A stretch of DNA of 64,000 nt from positions 2,409,001 through 2,473,000 of the forward strand of contig NZ_JBBOPI010000001.1 of NCBI RefSeq assembly GCF_038003525.1, in the 5' to 3' direction. The translations under genes and the position numbers were made by a program. The notes beneath the pieces were generated by a model. That model saw only the letters and a list, made by a program, of their open reading frames with translations, searched no databases and had not been told where the DNA came from. Origin of the DNA: Solibacillus sp. FSL H8-0538 (GTDB taxonomy: Bacteria > Bacillota > Bacilli > Bacillales_A > Planococcaceae). This document shows positions 1-56,390 of the stretch, piece after piece (position 1 is the first letter of the stretch; every line of letters begins with the position of its first letter).

Positions 1-811
1 AACCGTGTGCACCAGCGCCAAAACCCGCGTATTCATCATTATCCCAATAAATTTTATTATGTGTTGAAGCGTACCCTTCATGCGCAAAATTACTTATTTC
101 GTATTGCCCCTTACCGTGAGCCGCCATCGTGTCCATTAATACGGCATACATATCTGCCTCTAAATCCTCTGTTGGCAAATGTAGCTTCCCCTTTGCATAT
201 TGGATGTAGAAAATTGTTTTTGGCTCAACGATTAATGAATACGCTGAGTAATGTGGCAAGCCTAGTGCTAGTGCCTTATCTAAAGTATCCTTCCATTGCT
301 CCATCGTTTGTCCAGGCAAGCCGTACATCAAATCGACACTAATGTTTTCGAAGCCGACACGTTTCGCATTTTCGATTGTTTCATACACATGCTCATTTGA
401 GTGTGTTCGGCCGATTTTTTGTAGCAGCCCCTGATCAAATGACTGGACGCCCATACTTAGACGGTTTACCCCGCCATTATAAAGTGCCTGTAACTTTTCA
501 ACTGTAAGCTCATCAGGGTTTGCTTCTGAGCTAAACTCTTTTAAGTTTGACATTGGAATATGTTTCGCAATATGCGCAAGTAATGTTGTAATTTGTTGTG
601 GAGACAAGGAGGTTGGTGTGCCCCCACCTAAAAATATTGTTTCAATATTAGCAAATGCTTCTGGCATCAGAGCAACCGTTAGTTCGATTTCTCTACCAAG
701 TGCCTCAATATATTCATCAACTGGCTGATTTTTAAAATACACTTTATTAAAATCACAGTAATTACAAATTTGATGACAAAAAGGAATGTGAATGTATACA
801 CCTCTAGCCAT
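1..811 (-). CDS. hemW: HemW-type radical SAM protein (3' part cut by window edge)
   Basis: Open to the window edge, so the C-terminus is missing; about 270 N-terminal residues are visible. The start is ATG at 811 (MARGVYIHIPF). The radical SAM cluster motif CxxxCxxC (CHQICNYC) falls at residues 12-19, followed by a GGGTPTSLS stretch typical of the HemN/HemW group. HemW proteins are heme chaperones that resemble oxygen-independent coproporphyrinogen oxidase but usually lack that activity. The name is chosen over hemN because it sits directly downstream of lepA, the usual Bacillales position. About 220 nt separate it from the next upstream gene, mostly filled by a family A repeat, so it may have its own promoter. 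Confidence 0.9.
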   Translation of the reverse strand, partial: MARGVYIHIPFCHQICNYCDFNKVYFKNQPVDEYIEALGREIELTVALMPEAFANIETIFLGGGTPTSLSPQQITTLLAHIAKHIPMSNLKEFSSEANPDELTVEKLQALYNGGVNRLSMGVQSFDQGLLQKIGRTHSNEHVYETIENAKRVGFENISVDLMYGLPGQTMEQWKDTLDKALALGLPHYSAYSLIVEPKTIFYIQYAKGKLHLPTEDLEADMYAVLMDTMAAHGKGQYEISNFAHEGYASTHNKIYWDNDEYAGFGAGAHG

Positions 812-32940: not shown

Positions 32941-33170
32941 CAAAAAAAGCCCTCATCCCCAAAAGGGACGAAGACTGTTATCTCGCGGTACCACCCTAAA
33001 TTATAAAAGCATAAAACTTTTACATCTCAAGCACTTGTAACGTAAGTGAACGGCAGGTATTAGCTGCACTCTGGAGTAGCTTTCCGAATCAAAATGAGGA
33101 GATTTTTTCAGCCGAGAAATCTCTTTCTAAAACACATCTATAAAACGTACTTTTTCCATCATCGTTTTCA
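32941..33170 (-). promoter_or_regulatory. T-box leader of alaS
   Basis: The minus strand contains the T-box sequence AGGGTGGTACCGCGA (32982-32997), preceded by an AGTA-containing stem I region and followed by a terminator hairpin (32945-32976) with a T run. A GCT triplet (33078-33080) directly before actccagag is the candidate Ala specifier. Uncharged tRNA-Ala would favour the antiterminator and read-through into alaS. Confidence 0.9.
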
Positions 33171-33232
33171 TTGTATTCTACTACACATTATAAATAAAAA
33201 CATGGATGTGTGTCAATCGCTTAGACACATCA

Positions 33233-36809: not shown

Positions 36810-39320
36810 TCATTCTGATTTACAAAAGTCAAACGGTGAAATCCCATCCATTCCAATCAGAGGATGAATGTATGGGGCAGTTTCTGTTGTTAAGTTCATT
36901 GGTAGTGCTTCGGCAATTTTATGTGACTCAGAAATATTAAGAATCGCCATTTGCTCCTGTACTTGTTCAGGCTGTTTTTTGATTTTATCGACCTGCACAG
37001 GCTTGGCAGATACTTGTTCCATAGTGACAGTTATTTCCTCTACCTCGTCAATTGCCATCGGATTTAAACGGGCTTTTAGGCTAGTAAGACGGGCAAGATC
37101 ATCCGTCTTCGCCAAACCATTTGCAAGTACATCTGGTTCACCGCATAAAATTAGGAAGCTTTTCGCACGGGTAATACCAGTGTACAAAAGATTGCGGCGT
37201 AGCATTTTAGAATAGCCGCGCACGACTGGCATAATAACTGTTTGAAACTCCGACCCTTGCGATTTATGAATGGAGCAGCAATAGGCTAGCGTAAGCTGAT
37301 TTAAATCACCGCGCTGATACGTTACTTCAATCCCATCATAGGAGACGATGAGTACATCTTGTTTTTCAATTGTTTCCTTCGCTCGTATAATAGAAATCAC
37401 TTCGCCCATGTCCCCGTTAAACACATTGCTTTCTGGCTGATTCACAAGCTGTAATACTTTATCACCAATGCGGTAAATGGTATCACCAAAAACGAGTTCC
37501 TTGCGGGTGCCATCATTTGGGTTTACGAGCTCTTGAATTTGTTTATTCAGTGCATCAATGCCTGCTGGACCTTTGTACATCGGTGCGAGCACTTGAATAT
37601 CCCGGATTGCATGACCTTTTGCTACCGCACTTTTCACAACCTGTGTAACAACGCTCGTTACCTGATTTGCAGAAGCATTAATAAAAGAGCGATCGCTTGT
37701 TTTAGCCGTTAACGTTTCCGGTACAATCCCCTTTTTAATTTGGTGGGCTATGTCAATAATTGTTGAACCTTCAGCTTGTCGGTACACATCTGTTAATTCA
37801 ACTGTTGGAATTTGATTTGATGACAGTAAATCCTTTAATACCTGACCGGGGCCTACTGGTGGTAGCTGGTCCTGATCTCCAACGAATACAACTTGTACAT
37901 CTTCATGTAGTGCCTTGAGTAATTGGTGGGCAAGCCATGTATCCACCATCGACATCTCATCAATTATCACGAGACGTCCTGTTACTTCACGCTCTGTTTC
38001 CTCTTCCTTTTGCTGACCAGTAAAACCGAGCAGACGGTGAATTGTCATCGCTGGCAGTTCTGTCGACTCCGCTAAACGTTTCGCTGCACGTCCAGTTGGC
38101 GCTGCTAAAACAATAGGAAACGGTTCTTCCTTTTGCGCATAATCTTTCGGGTTCAATGACAAGCCGTGAAGCTCGGCATATACTTCAACAAGCCCTCGAA
38201 TAACAGTCGTTTTACCTGTTCCCGGACCGCCCGTTAAAATCATGACCGCAGAGTTTAATGCCGTTTCAATCGCCTGTGCTTGGGTCGGTGCATACGTTAC
38301 GTCATAGCGCTCTTCTACCTCTCCAATTGCTTTGCGAATTTCATCACGAGAAAAGCTTTCACTTTTTTTATTCTTTTCTTTTAAATCAAGAATTTTTGAC
38401 GCAATACCAACTTCACTGAAATAAAGTGATGGTAAGTACAGACGGGTTTCCTCGCCACAAATTTTTGACTCCTCGCGCATTTGAATACAGGCTTGTGAAA
38501 TCGCATCAAATGGAATTTCCACGCCCTGACTTTGCTCAAGTATCCCCTTTACCATGGGAAGTACAATTTCTGCGTCGAGATAAACATGTCCCTCTGATAG
38601 CGCGGCATTCGTTAGCACATGAAAAATTGCCGCCTTAATACGGTCTGGATGATTGCCTGTAATCCCTAATTTAGAGCCGAGTTCATCCGCACGACCAAAG
38701 CCGACACCATCCACTTCTTCAATGAGGCGGTATGGATTTTCGGTTAACATTGAAATGGTTTCTTCACGATATGTTTGGTAAATTTTCATGCCTAGCTGCG
38801 GTCCAAAACCCCATTCGTTCAGCTGAATCATGACACGCTCAAGGCCAAGGTTTTCTTCAATCGTTTGACGGATTGCGAGCTTTTTCTCTGTTGATAAACG
38901 CGGGACCGCATTAAGCGCTTCTGGATCTTCTAAAATACGTTTTAGTGCATTCACGCCAAGCTTTTCTACGATCGTTTCTGCCGTTTTCCGTCCAATGCCA
39001 GTGAATAGATCGCTTGATAAATAATGAACAATGCCCTGTTCTGTCGCTGGCACTTCTTTTTCAAACGTTTCCACTTGAAACTGGATGCCGTATTTCGGAT
39101 GACTTTTCATGACACCCGTAAAACGATAGAGCTCGTCCTCTGTAAGCTGCGGGAAGTAACCGACAACGATCATTTCTTTTTCTTCATATTGCAGATTTGT
39201 TTCTTGAATTTTTACGCGAAGAATCGAGTACATATTCGTCGCATTATGAAAAATTGACACGATGGGACGGCCGAGGATAAATAGCTTATTCATTTCAAAT
39301 AAATCAAGATTTTGTGACAT
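36810..39320 (-). CDS. recD2: RecD2-type DNA helicase
   Basis: 5'-3' SF1B helicase of organisms lacking RecBC, involved in repair and fork progression; YrrC in B. subtilis. 836 aa. The long RecD2-specific N-terminal domain includes helix-hairpin-helix stretches (FTGIGRKTAETIVEKLG). Walker A GGPGTGKTT is near residue 370, Walker B VIIDEMSMVD, and motif III GDQDQLPPVGPG. UvrD-like motif LAYCCSIHKSQGSEF follows. AAGGGGG precedes the ATG. The Gln/Glu-rich C-terminal tail is poorly conserved. Confidence 0.95.
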   Translation of the reverse strand: MSQNLDLFEMNKLFILGRPIVSIFHNATNMYSILRVKIQETNLQYEEKEMIVVGYFPQLTEDELYRFTGVMKSHPKYGIQFQVETFEKEVPATEQGIVHYLSSDLFTGIGRKTAETIVEKLGVNALKRILEDPEALNAVPRLSTEKKLAIRQTIEENLGLERVMIQLNEWGFGPQLGMKIYQTYREETISMLTENPYRLIEEVDGVGFGRADELGSKLGITGNHPDRIKAAIFHVLTNAALSEGHVYLDAEIVLPMVKGILEQSQGVEIPFDAISQACIQMREESKICGEETRLYLPSLYFSEVGIASKILDLKEKNKKSESFSRDEIRKAIGEVEERYDVTYAPTQAQAIETALNSAVMILTGGPGTGKTTVIRGLVEVYAELHGLSLNPKDYAQKEEPFPIVLAAPTGRAAKRLAESTELPAMTIHRLLGFTGQQKEEETEREVTGRLVIIDEMSMVDTWLAHQLLKALHEDVQVVFVGDQDQLPPVGPGQVLKDLLSSNQIPTVELTDVYRQAEGSTIIDIAHQIKKGIVPETLTAKTSDRSFINASANQVTSVVTQVVKSAVAKGHAIRDIQVLAPMYKGPAGIDALNKQIQELVNPNDGTRKELVFGDTIYRIGDKVLQLVNQPESNVFNGDMGEVISIIRAKETIEKQDVLIVSYDGIEVTYQRGDLNQLTLAYCCSIHKSQGSEFQTVIMPVVRGYSKMLRRNLLYTGITRAKSFLILCGEPDVLANGLAKTDDLARLTSLKARLNPMAIDEVEEITVTMEQVSAKPVQVDKIKKQPEQVQEQMAILNISESHKIAEALPMNLTTETAPYIHPLIGMDGISPFDFCKSE

Positions 39321-39487
39321 CCAAGTAGCGCCCCCTTTCTATTTTGTATGCCCATTTTACCATAGGAGCTAAACGCTGTCTTTTGTAAATGAAGCAATTG
39401 TTCTGCCAGTCAGATTTTTCTATAAATTAGCGCACTTAGAATGGTATGATAGAAGAAGAATTTTTTAGGAAAGGTTTGTGAATAGCA

Positions 39488-40243
39488 GTGGAATTTAGAC
39501 CTTGTATTGATTTACATGATGGAAAAGTAAAGCAAATTGTCGGGAGTACCCTCGGACATAAAGATCAAGCGGTTGTCGAAAACTTTACATCTGAGCATGA
39601 TTCAACGTATTTTGCTCAGCTGTTTGCGAATGATAAGTTAACAGGTGGGCATGTCATTATGCTAGGTAGCGGTAACGAAGAAGCGGCTATCCGCGCGTTA
39701 AACGCATATCCAAACGGTTTACAAATAGGCGGTGGTATTACTGCCGATAATGCTAAAATATATATTGATGCTGGTGCATCCCATGTCATTGTGACGTCGT
39801 ATATTTTCCATGACGGAAAGCTAGATATGGAGCATTTACAAAAGCTGATTGCGGCGGTTGGCAAAGATAAGCTCGTCATTGATCTTAGCTGTCGAGCGCG
39901 TGATGGTAAATGGTTTGTTGTCACGGATAAGTGGACGAAATTTAGTGATTTTGAAGTAAATGCAACTTCGATTAAAATGATGGAAAACTATTGTGACGAG
40001 CTACTCATTCATGCGGTCGATGTTGAAGGAAAACGCAGTGGTATGCAAGAGGGCTTAGTAGCAGACTTGGCGAAGTGGACGTCTATTCCGACAACTTATG
40101 CTGGGGGCGTTCGCTCTATCGAAGACTTAAAGCTATTCGAGACAATTGGAAACAATAAACTTCACGTAACAATTGGTTCCGCCCTCGATATTTTCGGAGG
40201 CGATCTTTCATACGAAGACGTTGTTGCATACTGCAAGGAGTAA
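39488..40243 (+). CDS. Eukaryotic-type phosphoribosylformimino-AICAR-phosphate isomerase (HisA/HIS6-like)
   Basis: 251 aa beta/alpha barrel starting at GTG 39488, with AGGAAAGG upstream. FRPCIDLHDGKVKQIVGSTL, GGHVIMLG, LQIGGGITADN, VIDLSCRARDGKW and GSALDIFGGD closely follow yeast HIS6 rather than classical bacterial HisA. HIS6 performs the ProFAR isomerase step of histidine synthesis. It stands alone with no other his gene nearby. Whether it is the only isomerase in the genome cannot be seen here. Horizontal origin is possible. Confidence 0.85.
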   Translation: MEFRPCIDLHDGKVKQIVGSTLGHKDQAVVENFTSEHDSTYFAQLFANDKLTGGHVIMLGSGNEEAAIRALNAYPNGLQIGGGITADNAKIYIDAGASHVIVTSYIFHDGKLDMEHLQKLIAAVGKDKLVIDLSCRARDGKWFVVTDKWTKFSDFEVNATSIKMMENYCDELLIHAVDVEGKRSGMQEGLVADLAKWTSIPTTYAGGVRSIEDLKLFETIGNNKLHVTIGSALDIFGGDLSYEDVVAYCKE

Positions 40244-40512: not shown

Positions 40513-41109
40513 CACTGAAAAACTTACGCCTTAATAATGACGAATCTTCTTCAGGTAAAAATAAGGCGCTTCTTGTTCTATTTTGAACAGGAAGTACTTT
40601 ATTTCTTTCTCTATTCCTTACACTTTTTCATTTAGTAGCTTCAATATTCGTTTCAAATAGACAGCAAATATCGTTGTGGCACAACCATTTTGTAAATCGC
40701 CATAAACGAGCTTAAGTAGAGTCTTTCTTGGTTTGAAATAATTTGGAAACACTAACATTAATTAGTTCCTTTTAGAATACAAAAAAATCACTCTTTTTAG
40801 ATGAGAGAATGACGCATTCATTCTTAACAGTTACAAGTTGATTGGAGTGGAGGCGACGACTTCTAGGGGATTAGCGAGCAGCTTGAGACCCTGGACTGAG
40901 GCCAACACGATGTTGGTCACAAAGGCGTTGCCACAGGACGTGGCGTACTTAGCCTTTGTTCCATTGTTACACAGAAGCGGCTCAAGGCTCGCCCCCAGAA
41001 AAGCGTTCGCCGCAACGGAAATCAACGACATCGAAGTAAAAAGCCAGTTCTTAAACGATGTCTCGTTCAAGAACTGGCTAAACTACTTTATTGACTTTTT
41101 CAGTGCCCT
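40512..41109. mobile_element. Degenerate IS-like / composite element with GCACTGAAAAA ends
   Basis: Left end gcactgaaaaac and right end ctttttcagtgc are inverted repeats like those of the 110-bp element at 28621. Inside, the minus strand near 40531-40615 translates to IEKEIKYFLFKIEQEAP and so on, also found near 49155. A copy of a common Bacillales intergenic repeat fills the right half. No intact transposase remains. The insertion is 5 nt past the hpaB stop. Confidence 0.5.
40838..41080 (+). repeat. Family C repeat (gttgattggagtggaggc type)
   Basis: gttgattggagtggaggcga ... gggattagcgagcagcttga ... cggaaatcaacgacatcgaag, then a hairpin agccagttcttaaacga/tcgttcaagaactggct. I recognise the opening as part of a repeat common in Bacillales intergenic DNA. 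Parts recur near 49348 (ggaaatcaacgaaatcgaa). Confidence 0.6.
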
Positions 41110-41114
41110 CAATT

Positions 41115-42563
41115 TCAAGTCGGTGGGCTTTGGTCTAATAGATCCTTCACTCGTTGGACAAATATTTCTTTGTCGTACGTAAAGTATAATTCACTTGAAA
41201 TTTTCACTGGGTCGCCGAAGAAAAACCGCTCGTAAAGTGTTTGGCGCGTTCCAAATGAACTCATAGTTAAATCCCAAGCTAGACGGAATAATTTCACGCG
41301 ATTTTCTGCATCCTCTGCTTTAGCCTGTAAATATTGGTCTAAATCGTTTCGAATTGTCGAGCTAAATGCTTTTTCAGTTGGAATAGCCATTAAACCGCTC
41401 GCACCAAGAAGCTGAATAATGTCAGTAAACCTTGGGTAAATACGCGGAAATACATTGATAGCAACTTGAAGCGTTGTACGGTCTGGGCGCAAATATCCCC
41501 AATCATCTAGTTTTGCTTCGATCTCAGATTTGAGTACTAAAGCTTTCATCGTTTCAAGCGCAATTATTATTTCGGAAATTTTTTCCTGAACATGCTGATA
41601 TTCGGTAATATTAATCGTATTGGCGATCGACTCGACCAGTCCTAAAATGAATTCCGTCTTAATAATTTGCCTTGAAGCAACTTGATGCAAGGAAAATGAT
41701 TTGAACGCACATACATTCATAAAGTTATTTGCGACTTCCAAATTATCATAATAAAATATGCGATTCCACGGCACTAGTACATTATCGAACACCACAATGC
41801 AATCCATTTCTTCAAATCGCGCGCTTAAAGGATAGTTAAACACAGATTCTCCACCAACAAAAGATTCTCTACAAATGAACTTTAACCCTTCACTATTGCT
41901 CGGTATGGCAAATGCGTATGCATCCCCTTCACTTACCATCCATCCCGAAGATATGACGATGATTTCATCCGTCATCCCGCCTTGTGTTGCAAGTAACTTT
42001 GCACCTTTTATAAGGATGCCTTCTTTCGTTCGGTCGATTATTTTTGCAGCAATGGGTTCATCCGTATCCTCAAAATATACTTTAGAACGATTTACTTGAG
42101 GGTTAATAAATGTGTGCGTTAAAGATAAATCTTGCTCACGTGCCATTTCATAGAATGCCTTTAGATTCTCTGGAAAACAATTCTCTTTCCCATTCAAGTA
42201 ATCCGTAGAACAAACAAGGGCTGTTAATACGGTGTTCATATAATCTGGACTTCTCCCCATTAAACCATTCGTTAATTTCGCCCACTGTTGGACCATCAAT
42301 CGTCTTTTTGTCAAATCCTCTTGTTTCTTTGGTTGTAAAAACGACAGTCCTACTTTATCCCCTGTCAGAGGTGAGGGATACGTTAAGTCATCTTTTACTG
42401 CCATTTCATGTTGTAAATCATACAAGGCAGCCTGACTTTTCATAACGCCTTTAAATGCTGGATGTTCTGAAATTTTGCCTGTTACCTGCTCACCATCTAT
42501 CCAAACATTAGTTTTTAGCTGATCAATCCGTTCAATATATTGTTTTCCCGTAATCGCTGCCAT
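41115..42563 (-). CDS. 4-hydroxyphenylacetate 3-monooxygenase oxygenase family (HpaB/YoaI)
   Basis: Flavin-dependent two-component monooxygenase, oxygenase subunit; acyl-CoA dehydrogenase-like fold. 482 aa from the ATG at 42563 (MAAITGKQYIERIDQL), with GGGAG 8 nt upstream. Family patterns are NVWIDGEQV, HTFINPQVNRSK, YYDNLEVANNF and the NVLVPWNRIF stretch. The flavin reductase partner (HpaC) is not in the window. 4-hydroxybutyryl-CoA dehydratase is a related alternative. The C-terminus is followed at once by the 40512-41109 element. Confidence 0.85.
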   Translation of the reverse strand: MAAITGKQYIERIDQLKTNVWIDGEQVTGKISEHPAFKGVMKSQAALYDLQHEMAVKDDLTYPSPLTGDKVGLSFLQPKKQEDLTKRRLMVQQWAKLTNGLMGRSPDYMNTVLTALVCSTDYLNGKENCFPENLKAFYEMAREQDLSLTHTFINPQVNRSKVYFEDTDEPIAAKIIDRTKEGILIKGAKLLATQGGMTDEIIVISSGWMVSEGDAYAFAIPSNSEGLKFICRESFVGGESVFNYPLSARFEEMDCIVVFDNVLVPWNRIFYYDNLEVANNFMNVCAFKSFSLHQVASRQIIKTEFILGLVESIANTINITEYQHVQEKISEIIIALETMKALVLKSEIEAKLDDWGYLRPDRTTLQVAINVFPRIYPRFTDIIQLLGASGLMAIPTEKAFSSTIRNDLDQYLQAKAEDAENRVKLFRLAWDLTMSSFGTRQTLYERFFFGDPVKISSELYFTYDKEIFVQRVKDLLDQSPPT

Positions 42564-42747
42564 ACACACACTCCCACTTTGTATTAGCTGTTATTTTTGG
42601 ACGAAAGAATTCTACTGTAGTATAGTATTTATTTATGGATTCAATTGTTACAAAATATATGACTACTTTTTATCATTGTCCGAGCAAATAAAATAGGTTT
42701 AACAATTATTTTTTTATTTGAGGTAGTCTACGATTAAAGGAGCTTTT

Positions 42748-43768: not shown

Positions 43769-44434
43769 CTAGTTTAAACGTTGACTAATCATATCATAAA
43801 TATAGCGTGCTTGATCAAACTCTGGCTGTAATGTATACGCTTGTTTTAAGTGATACATCGCTTTTTCCGTATCCGTCGTTGACACCGCATATAAGACACC
43901 TAAATTGTAATGCGCGTCTGCATTATTCCAGTCTTCATCAATTACAAATTGCAGTTCTTTTAGTGCGTAATCAAACATTTCAAGGGTACATAATAAAATA
44001 CCGTATGATAGACGAATTTGAATATCATTTGGTGCAAGTTCAGCTGCGCGCTGCATAAAAGGAAGCGCCAGTTTATACTGTTCCCCGCGCTCGAAGCATT
44101 TACCTAGCATATAGTAAGCATCTGCTCCCTCAACGCCGTAATCAATTGATTTTTGATATAGTTTTGCTGCTTCTGTATAGCGCTCCGCCTCATAGTACAA
44201 GTTCGCTAAGCCGTAATAAGCTGTTGCTGCTTTTTCATCTACTGTAATCGCCTTTTGGAAGAAACGCTCCGCACGCTCTATATCATTCATCGCTGCAAGT
44301 AAAGTACCAAAATTAATATAACCTACTGCATCTTCTGGGTTTGCATCAATTGCTTGTGTAAACGCTTGTGCTGCGTCCTCATAGTGTTTTTCTTGGAATG
44401 CTTTAATGCCAATTTCGTTAAAATCTATCTTCAT
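43769..44434 (-). CDS. yrrB: TPR repeat protein (YrrB-like)
   Basis: 221 aa made almost wholly of tetratricopeptide repeats (about six), for example KAFQEKHYEDAAQAFTQAI, NLYYEAERYTEAAKLYQKSI and NLGVLYAVSTTDTEKAMYHL. Such proteins bind partners through a helical groove. It is the position of yrrB, between recD2 and mnmA. The partner is unknown. Confidence 0.9.
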   Translation of the reverse strand: MKIDFNEIGIKAFQEKHYEDAAQAFTQAIDANPEDAVGYINFGTLLAAMNDIERAERFFQKAITVDEKAATAYYGLANLYYEAERYTEAAKLYQKSIDYGVEGADAYYMLGKCFERGEQYKLALPFMQRAAELAPNDIQIRLSYGILLCTLEMFDYALKELQFVIDEDWNNADAHYNLGVLYAVSTTDTEKAMYHLKQAYTLQPEFDQARYIYDMISQRLN

Positions 44435-44546: not shown

Positions 44547-46866
<2,320 letters not shown>

Positions 46867-52375: not shown

Positions 52376-52622
52376 AAAAAACTCTCCTGCAAGTGCAGAA
52401 GAGCTTTAGACAAGGAATTAGACGAACCCCGAATATGCCGTTATGTTAATAACACCGTTTTGAACCCGCATCCTAGCAGGGGGGTGCCCTAATCTTTACG
52501 TTAAACGTCCCTCTCCAATGGGGCATGTTTGCAGCAAAAGAAATGAGTGGCTCCCAACGATATAATGTTCGGTCAAAACTGTTAAGAAACATTTGCGTAA
52601 CAAACATCTCAGGTTTCGTATT
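52376..52622 (-). ncRNA. ssrS: 6S RNA (bsrA/6S-1 position)
   Basis: Gene-free, GC-richer interval between tcdA and aspS, which is exactly where B. subtilis encodes 6S-1 RNA. A good promoter precedes it: TTGAAT (52652-52657), 17 nt, TAAGAT (52629-52634). A terminator hairpin (52381-52405) with T's ends it. The interior can pair end to end (gaccgaac at 52568-52575 with gttcgtc at 52421-52427) and holds G/C-rich inner stems. Called by position, promoter and foldability; ends are approximate. 6S RNA binds sigma-A RNA polymerase. Confidence 0.7.
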
Positions 52623-55974: not shown

Positions 55975-56085
55975 GCCTGCAGAATGCAGATCAGTTAGCC
56001 GTTGTCGCATGAATACGACGTTCTTAGGCTAGCATCCAACATTACGAAATCTGTGACATCCGCGGGAGGCTTTTTGTTTTCCCAT
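55975..56085 (-). repeat. Family E-like fragment in the hisS leader
   Basis: On the minus strand gcctcccgcggatgtcacag parallels gcctacggtggatgtcatag of the 3945-4140 copy. It is followed by imperfect hairpins (gctagcctaagaa/ggctaac, and a gcctgcagaatgcagat pair). It lies between the T-box terminator and the hisS start codon. Confidence 0.45.
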
Positions 56086-56094
56086 GGTAAAACA

Positions 56095-56390
56095 CAAAAA
56101 AGCTTTCGTCCCCTGCATAATAAATGCAAGGGACGAAAGCTTGAAAAGTCTTCCGCGGTTCCACCCTAGTTGATGTATTGCTACATCCTCTCGTATTCGG
56201 ATAACGGCCGATTCCGTTTTCCCCTACTAAACAACAAGTTGTTCGAAGAAAAGCCTCTTAAGTGTTGTTCGCATGTTACTTACTGTAGGAAAGATTTCAG
56301 CCTATGTCTTTCCCTCTCTTGTCAGCATTGGTAGCAGCTACTTGCTTGGTCAATGGCGATATTACGTCTTTAGATTAATCCTTATGTTAA
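56095..56390 (-). promoter_or_regulatory. T-box leader of hisS-aspS
   Basis: T-box sequence AGGGTGGAACCGCGGA (56152-56167) on the minus strand, then a terminator with stem agctttcgtccc/gggacgaaagct (56101-56142) and a T run. The specifier region holds overlapping triplets AAC and CAC (AACAC, 56262-56266). CAC would read tRNA-His. Confidence 0.9.

Follow-up and report, generated by a model that had tools for sequence, protein, structure and literature searches.

A predicted HIS6/HISN3-type ProFAR isomerase gene far from a his operon that lacks hisA in Solibacillus sp. FSL H8-0538 and related genera

The window analysed here, a stretch of 64,000 nucleotides from the genome of Solibacillus sp. 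FSL H8-0538, carries a gene on its plus strand (hisA_euk, 39488..40243, 251 aa, GTG start) that was assigned to the HIS6/HISN3-type ProFAR isomerases by means of the TIGR02129 profile, the solved structures 9fcf and 2agk, and an AlphaFold model. ProFAR isomerase (EC 5.3.1.16) is the fourth enzyme of histidine synthesis, ProFAR being 1-(5-phosphoribosyl)-5-[(5-phosphoribosylamino)methylideneamino]imidazole-4-carboxamide. Judging from the gene content of the genome and its relatives, hisA_euk almost certainly encodes the only such isomerase of the cell. We are highly confident of the reading as a whole, namely that this sole isomerase goes back to an ancestral gain from another bacterium at the junction between recD2 and a TPR-repeat gene, with clean loss of the native hisA thereafter. 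The activity of the protein is predicted from its family, fold, catalytic-residue match, the gap in the operon, and the distribution of the gene.

Family Assignment

A search of NCBIfam profiles matched the window protein to TIGR02129 ('hisA_euk') with 355.7 bits (E 1.5e-106) over model positions 2-254 of 255, the curated cut-off being 229.3 bits. Membership in classical HisA (TIGR00007) failed, with 73.7 bits vs a cut-off of 228.95 bits, as did the test for PriA, the bifunctional HisA-TrpF (TIGR01919, 27.3 bits vs 306.45 bits), while the Pfam domain found, His_biosynth, represents the superfamily common to both HisA types. Among solved structures, the best relative was Medicago HISN3 (9fcf), with 289.5 bits, followed by yeast His6 (2agk), with 216.7 bits, classical HisA and HisF structures trailing far behind.

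The first-pass annotation had recognized a yeast/plant HIS6 pattern in this protein; its motifs CIDLHDGKVKQIVGSTL, VIDLSCRARDGKW and GSALDIFGGD are all present in the window ORF, and with 355.7 bits to TIGR02129 the pattern is not due to chance. That the protein is of the eukaryotic type rather than a classical HisA agrees with the family scores and with the well-supported branch (100/100) between both types. The enzyme family is already known, and a close homologue is publicly annotated as hisA (WP_110045644.1). A rumen bacterium (Fibrobacter) is reported to be mentioned in the TIGR02129 record. The GTG start, which had been considered a sign of horizontal gain, is uninformative, because the start codon at this position varies among relatives (ATG, GTG or TTG).

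Histidine Biosynthesis Genes

The strongest match to PF00977 in the same genome was hisF (286.5 bits), followed by hisA_euk (100.5 bits) and three weak matches. No classical HisA over the TIGR00007 cut-off was found in this genome, HisF being the best match with 126 bits, and none was found by PF00977 either. In control genomes, PF00977 gave detection in all 14, but TIGR00007 failed on the B. subtilis control, and the search for classical HisA thus has some false negatives.

The his operon of the genome (locus L238, contig G000:C1) consists of hisZ-hisG-hisD-hisB-hisH-hisF-hisIE, the genes being named by homology. It is complete for its type but for hisA, which is missing between hisH and hisF, and the latter two genes overlap. 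The operon is located at about 3.055 Mb of the same contig, approximately 600 kb from hisA_euk (about 2.448 Mb), and no other histidine-synthesis genes were found among the ORFs around hisA_euk. Hence the orphan position described in the first-pass annotation is real, and a genome search for classical hisA and the his operon recovered the operon with a gap in place of hisA and no classical HisA. Of the roles that had been suggested for the gene, replacement of HisA is the one favored by these data, given the gap in the operon and the absence of classical HisA from this genome and from the 85 carrier genomes described below.

Structure and Active Site

An AlphaFold model of the window protein, built with the help of sequences from 38 bacterial relatives, had a pLDDT of 93.1. 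In structure superpositions, it matched HISN3 (9fcg) with Z 40.7, an rmsd of 1.3 over 251 residues, and 53% identity, and yeast His6 (2agk) with Z 33.2, vs Z of about 27 and about 18% identity for classical HisA structures. The window protein is, as modelled, a HISN3/His6-like TIM barrel.

Structures 9fcf and 9fcg are D57N mutants of HISN3 with bound ProFAR/PRFAR; D57 corresponds to D8 of the window protein, as follows from the chain numbering (50..306 on model 1..251) and the sequence alignment. Residues D8, D132, H175, and E180 are invariant in 39/39 aligned bacterial hisA_euk proteins. Profile comparison of hisA_euk with the classical HisA of the window's bacterial family (hhalign, probability 98.9, 22% identity) aligned the second classical Asp with S134 instead of D132 and the Asp of the classical KDG motif with E180, leaving a one-position gap beside H175. 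Given the mismatches at the second Asp and the KDG motif, the two types have D8 and the barrel in common but not the full active-site constellation, and the function of the window protein is deduced from HISN3/His6. If the chemistry is carried over from HISN3/HisA, Asp8 would serve as the acid-base residue, and the TIM barrel would open the aminoribose ring of ProFAR, an Amadori-type rearrangement yielding PRFAR. This product would feed the HisH-HisF synthase encoded by the distant his operon.

The window protein shares the family model, the fold and the catalytic Asp with HISN3 of Medicago truncatula (9fcf/9fcg; 53-54% identity) and yeast His6 (2agk; 38-43% identity), but its gene is bacterial, and its sequence nests within a clade of Bacilli. 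With classical HisA (TIGR00007) it shares the His_biosynth domain, the TIM barrel and, presumably, the reaction, but it is only about 18% identical to solved HisA and deviates from it in the KDG motif and at the second catalytic Asp; moreover, classical hisA usually resides in the his operon, whereas the window gene is about 600 kb from its own.

Distribution in the Bacterial Family

The bacterial family of the window was sampled with 261 genomes from 19 genera (codes g1-g19). hisA_euk scored over the cut-off in 85/261 genomes: it was found in every sampled genome of seven genera (g1, one genome; g3, three; g7, 32; g8, three; g10, five; g16, 16; g18, 25) and in none of the other 12. Classical HisA exceeded its cut-off in 157 of the 261 genomes and in none of the 85 carriers, where the best matches to the classical model (4.5e-19 to 3.1e-42) were in the range of HisF or hisA_euk itself. 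Neither type passed its cut-off in the remaining 19 genomes, comprising eight genomes of g2 and two of g5 with a divergent HisA just below the cut-off (about 1e-65 to 1e-67), three genomes (G104, G118, G215) with weaker classical-HisA matches, and six with none. The HisA proteins of loci L257 and L258 (g2) and L255 and L256 (g5) are classical but divergent, below the TIGR00007 cut-off, L257 having a very long branch. A search at the level of the order yielded extra genomes only from the window's own bacterial family.

Insertion Site and Operon Gap

On the left, hisA_euk adjoins recD2 (36810..39320, minus strand). The two genes are divergent, and the plus strand of the intergenic region between them (39321..39487) presumably provides hisA_euk with its own promoter. 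On the right, a gene for an HpaB-type hydroxylase (41115..42569, minus strand; Pfam domains HpaB_N and HpaB) precedes the gene for a TPR-repeat protein (yrrB-like, 43769..44434, minus strand), which forms the right edge of an ancestral recD2-TPR-mnmA block, mnmA (44547..45677, minus strand) being the next gene of that block. The hydroxylase gene is outside the conserved arrangement, as none of the 16 carrier loci compared has it in the interval from hisA_euk to the TPR gene, and it occurs at other positions in relatives.

recD2, the TPR gene and mnmA are consecutive in 29/29 genomes of the 12 non-carrier genera, that is, the junction is empty there. Among the carriers, hisA_euk is adjacent to and divergent from recD2 in all 16 loci compared, as well as in the window, and the TPR gene was found beyond it in 12 of these 16 loci, but was not seen within the sequence span examined in the other four (three of g16 and one of g8). 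As for the operon, the order hisB-hisH-hisF-hisIE, with hisH abutting hisF, is present in 30/30 carrier HisF loci (g7, g8, g16, g18), and hisH also abuts hisF in L238 (g1), L251 (g7), and L252 (g10). Other genera have hisH-hisA-hisF in six of ten loci (g6, g9, g11, g12, g14, g19); in g17 and g15 hisA is flanked by hisB and hisF, hisH not having been detected at that place, and in g4 and genome G135 (g13) it is flanked by hisB and hisIE. The hisB-hisA-hisIE operons of the latter two (L245 of G015, g4; L242 of G135) contain neither hisH nor hisF, a divergent hisF being located elsewhere; in G015, this hisF is part of a hisH-hisF pair (L269, 2262-2885 and 1498-2268). This is another relocation of a histidine biosynthesis step in the same bacterial family.

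In the recD2 tree (46 rows), the 17 carriers form one clade with a support of 100, implying one state change, and this clade is sister to g19, g14 and g6, which retain classical hisA in the operon. Since the carriers form a single clade, one ancestral substitution suffices. hisA_euk would have been gained from another bacterium by the common ancestor of the seven genera, inserting at the recD2-TPR junction with an orientation opposite to that of these two genes; the native hisA, made redundant, would then have been cleanly deleted, leaving hisH and hisF to abut. We infer both the order of events, gain first and loss second, and the bacterial nature of the donor.

The horizontal gain suggested in the first-pass annotation is likely, but it would have happened once, in the ancestor of the seven genera, and most likely from a bacterial donor. 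The accessory setting cited in its support was not borne out, as the neighbors are core genes (recD2, the TPR gene, mnmA, iscS, and, further on, aspS, hisS, relA, and apt, all named by homology), and the base composition of hisA_euk is similar to that of adjacent recD2 (GC 0.425 vs 0.431; GC3 0.378 vs 0.368). A mobile element as the vehicle was considered and rejected: there is no tRNA in the window, the composition is recD2-like, and no transposase or integrase was noticed by eye in nearby ORFs.

Regulation

A TATGAT-like box, read by eye, recurs upstream of hisA_euk in the relatives and is a candidate promoter; a promoter scan found no consensus promoter on the plus strand of 39321..39487. 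The Firmicutes HisR consensus was taken from PMC9413887. Compared with this consensus, sites upstream of the his operon had two to four mismatches in 7/7 stretches (shuffle p 0.003-0.28), while the best matches upstream of hisA_euk had three mismatches in 3/6 loci of g16 (shuffle p 0.013-0.04) and four to six in the remaining 19 of the 22 loci tested, the window having five (p 0.57). On these mismatch counts, HisR control of the orphan gene is not claimed. No T-box was found in the vicinity of hisA_euk or in L238, the locus of the his operon. RNAs found in the window are two Bacillaceae-1 RNAs (RF01690), one of them (40902-40968) downstream of hisA_euk and the other at 55976-56043, as well as a 6S RNA (52422-52618) and two T-boxes (32961-33171; 56126-56362).

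hisA_euk in Other Bacteria

In a sample of the phylum, hisA_euk was found in 9/398 Bacillota genomes with four family codes. A scan of named genomes yielded at least 590 hisA_euk relatives, and 80 of them were taken further. The matches listed, classified by record title and NCBI rank, included Lachnospiraceae, other Clostridia, and Bacilli within the Bacillota; also among them were Thermodesulfobacteriota, MAGs ranked as Myxococcota, Gammaproteobacteria (Endozoicomonas), Verrucomicrobiota, Lentisphaerota, Kiritimatiellota, Latescibacterota, Armatimonadota, Gemmatimonadota, Planctomycetota, Nitrospinota, and Spirochaetota. Classical HisA over the cut-off coexisted with hisA_euk in 2/42 genomes (G676 and G659, both MAGs), these 42 representing loci out of the 80 kept from at least 590. 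Within the same 80 loci, hisA_euk is located between hisH and hisF in four (Cohnella, Paenibacillus), and the flanks of the other 76 yielded no his gene, although distant his genes can be missed there, because the queries came from the window's own genome and at most 6 kb on each side was searched, less on short contigs. Given the few coexistences and the lack of flanking his genes, exclusion of classical HisA and an orphan location are both typical of the hisA_euk family rather than peculiar to the window.

The hisA genes of Cohnella and Paenibacillus (L111, L114, L130, L138) and Gracilibacillus oryzae (L140) belong to the same Bacilli clade as the window gene (61-67% identity); in Cohnella and Paenibacillus the gene sits within the his operon, flanked by hisH and hisF, whereas in the window's bacterial family it sits beside recD2. 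The gene of Paenibacillus cellulosilyticus (WP_110045644.1, 68% identity, annotated hisA), located on a 508-kb replicon (NZ_CP054609.1), resembles the window gene in that the annotation shows no further his gene within a distance of 9 kb, but groups with Cohnella, unlike the gene of the window's bacterial family. Among the replicons with a close homologue, this one alone is recorded as a plasmid, though the spoVA genes beside hisA hint that it is chromosome-like. The single match in a 'phage' (MT839235.1; L284, 3633-4394, 52% identity) was discarded as unverified; this unannotated faecal contig of 4463 bases, titled 'Bacteriophage sp.', is perhaps gut bacterial DNA.

The Thermodesulfobacteriota carriers Desulfobacter latus and a Desulfobulbus MAG were found to have, by Pfam domains (GATase and His_biosynth), fused HisH-HisF proteins of 530 and 576 aa (L264, 350-1942; L266, 706-2436), as in yeast. 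Fused HisHF of delta-proteobacteria grouping with plants is reported in PMC1963479. The co-occurrence of hisA_euk and fused HisHF makes both steps 4 and 5 look eukaryote-like in these Thermodesulfobacteriota, and the two genes may have moved together.

Phylogeny

A first quick tree contained 81 rows; the careful tree was cut to 52 rows, with L257 dropped for its very long branch. Since a very long branch (about 5 on either side) separates hisA_euk from classical HisA, we place no trust in the root within hisA_euk. Classical HisA was separated with a support of 100/100, and no placement of the window protein inside it was found. The 12 rows of the window's bacterial family constitute a clade of their own (100/96), which belongs to a Bacilli clade of 17 rows shared with Cohnella, Paenibacillus and Gracilibacillus (100/99); by this placement, Bacilli would be the nearest known donor pool. 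The P. cellulosilyticus protein, when added, joined Cohnella (96/91), the clade of the window's bacterial family staying intact (99/95). Eukaryotes were represented in the trees by two sequences, Medicago, which had no supported partner, and yeast, which joined Verrucomicrobiota (99/86) on a long branch.

Alternative Explanations

Another role that had been suggested for the gene product was that of an additional isomerase, or of an enzyme performing some other task next to histidine synthesis. The orphan position would suit such a role, as would one carrier, G026 (a one-contig assembly of 5.3 Mb, with 96% completeness and 5% contamination), in which hisA_euk (C1:4004797-4005540) is retained without hisF and hisD. 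We consider it very unlikely, as classical HisA over the cut-off is found in 0/85 carriers, HisF was detected in 78 of the 80 carriers searched (all but G027, G028, G029, G031, and G032, which belong to g7), the exceptions being G010 and G026, and the remaining operon genes are present in the window's own genome; this mutual exclusion with classical HisA together with HisF retention speaks against both options. Moreover, trpF (PF00697) is present in 11/11 carriers searched, including the window's own genome, so that a PriA-like double role as HisA and TrpF, also considered, is unneeded. hisD is also missing in G010 and G249, both incomplete assemblies. G026 is the single result that fits the sole-isomerase account untidily: either hisA_euk can outlive the pathway, or the assembly is faulty, and block loss of the operon after the isomerase gene had moved out, or an assembly fault, would explain it.

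Direct transfer from a plant or a fungus into the window bacterium or its ancestor could be suspected from the 'euk' in the name of the family model and from the best solved relatives, Medicago HISN3 and yeast His6. However, the family is found in many bacterial phyla (at least 590 relatives, 80 kept), the window's bacterial family is nested with Cohnella, Paenibacillus and Gracilibacillus (100/99), and the AU test rejected a clade of the window group with Medicago and yeast (p-AU 0.0002), its grouping with Medicago alone having p-AU 0.02; a eukaryotic origin is thus extremely improbable. Vertical inheritance from an early Bacilli ancestor that had both types, with lineages retaining one or the other, would be consistent with the coherent Bacilli clade and with the patchy spread over distant phyla among the matches listed. 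Still, it would require very many losses, as 9/398 genomes of the phylum carry hisA_euk, and is at odds with the empty recD2-TPR junction in 29/29 genomes of other genera and with the different location of the gene in Cohnella and Paenibacillus (in the his operon) and in the window's bacterial family (elsewhere); we regard it as unlikely. Ancestral gain from another bacterium, with subsequent loss of the native hisA, remains the preferred explanation.

Implications

The his operon of Lysinibacillus and Solibacillus is given in PMC9413887, where two passages that mention hisA or Lysinibacillus make no remark about a missing hisA. No description of a clade-wide hisA replacement was found in the open-access literature searched. 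More generally, we tentatively suggest, with more doubt than confidence, that hisA_euk is a lone travelling bacterial gene that has repeatedly displaced the operon hisA in unrelated bacteria, and that it is the source of eukaryotic HIS6/HISN3, possibly separately for plants and fungi. Separate acquisitions are suggested by the rejection of Medicago and yeast together in the AU test (p-AU 0.003) and by the grouping of yeast, on its long branch, with Verrucomicrobiota, in trees with two eukaryotic sequences.

The case would represent a clean swap of a pathway enzyme for a distant homologue, with the operon closing over the gap, and the empty site, the filled site, the intact operon and the gapped operon are all visible in sister genera. 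It corrects the view of this HisA type as a marker of eukaryotes, and for annotation it means that a his operon without hisA need not signal auxotrophy. Finally, the origin of plant and fungal HIS6 becomes testable.
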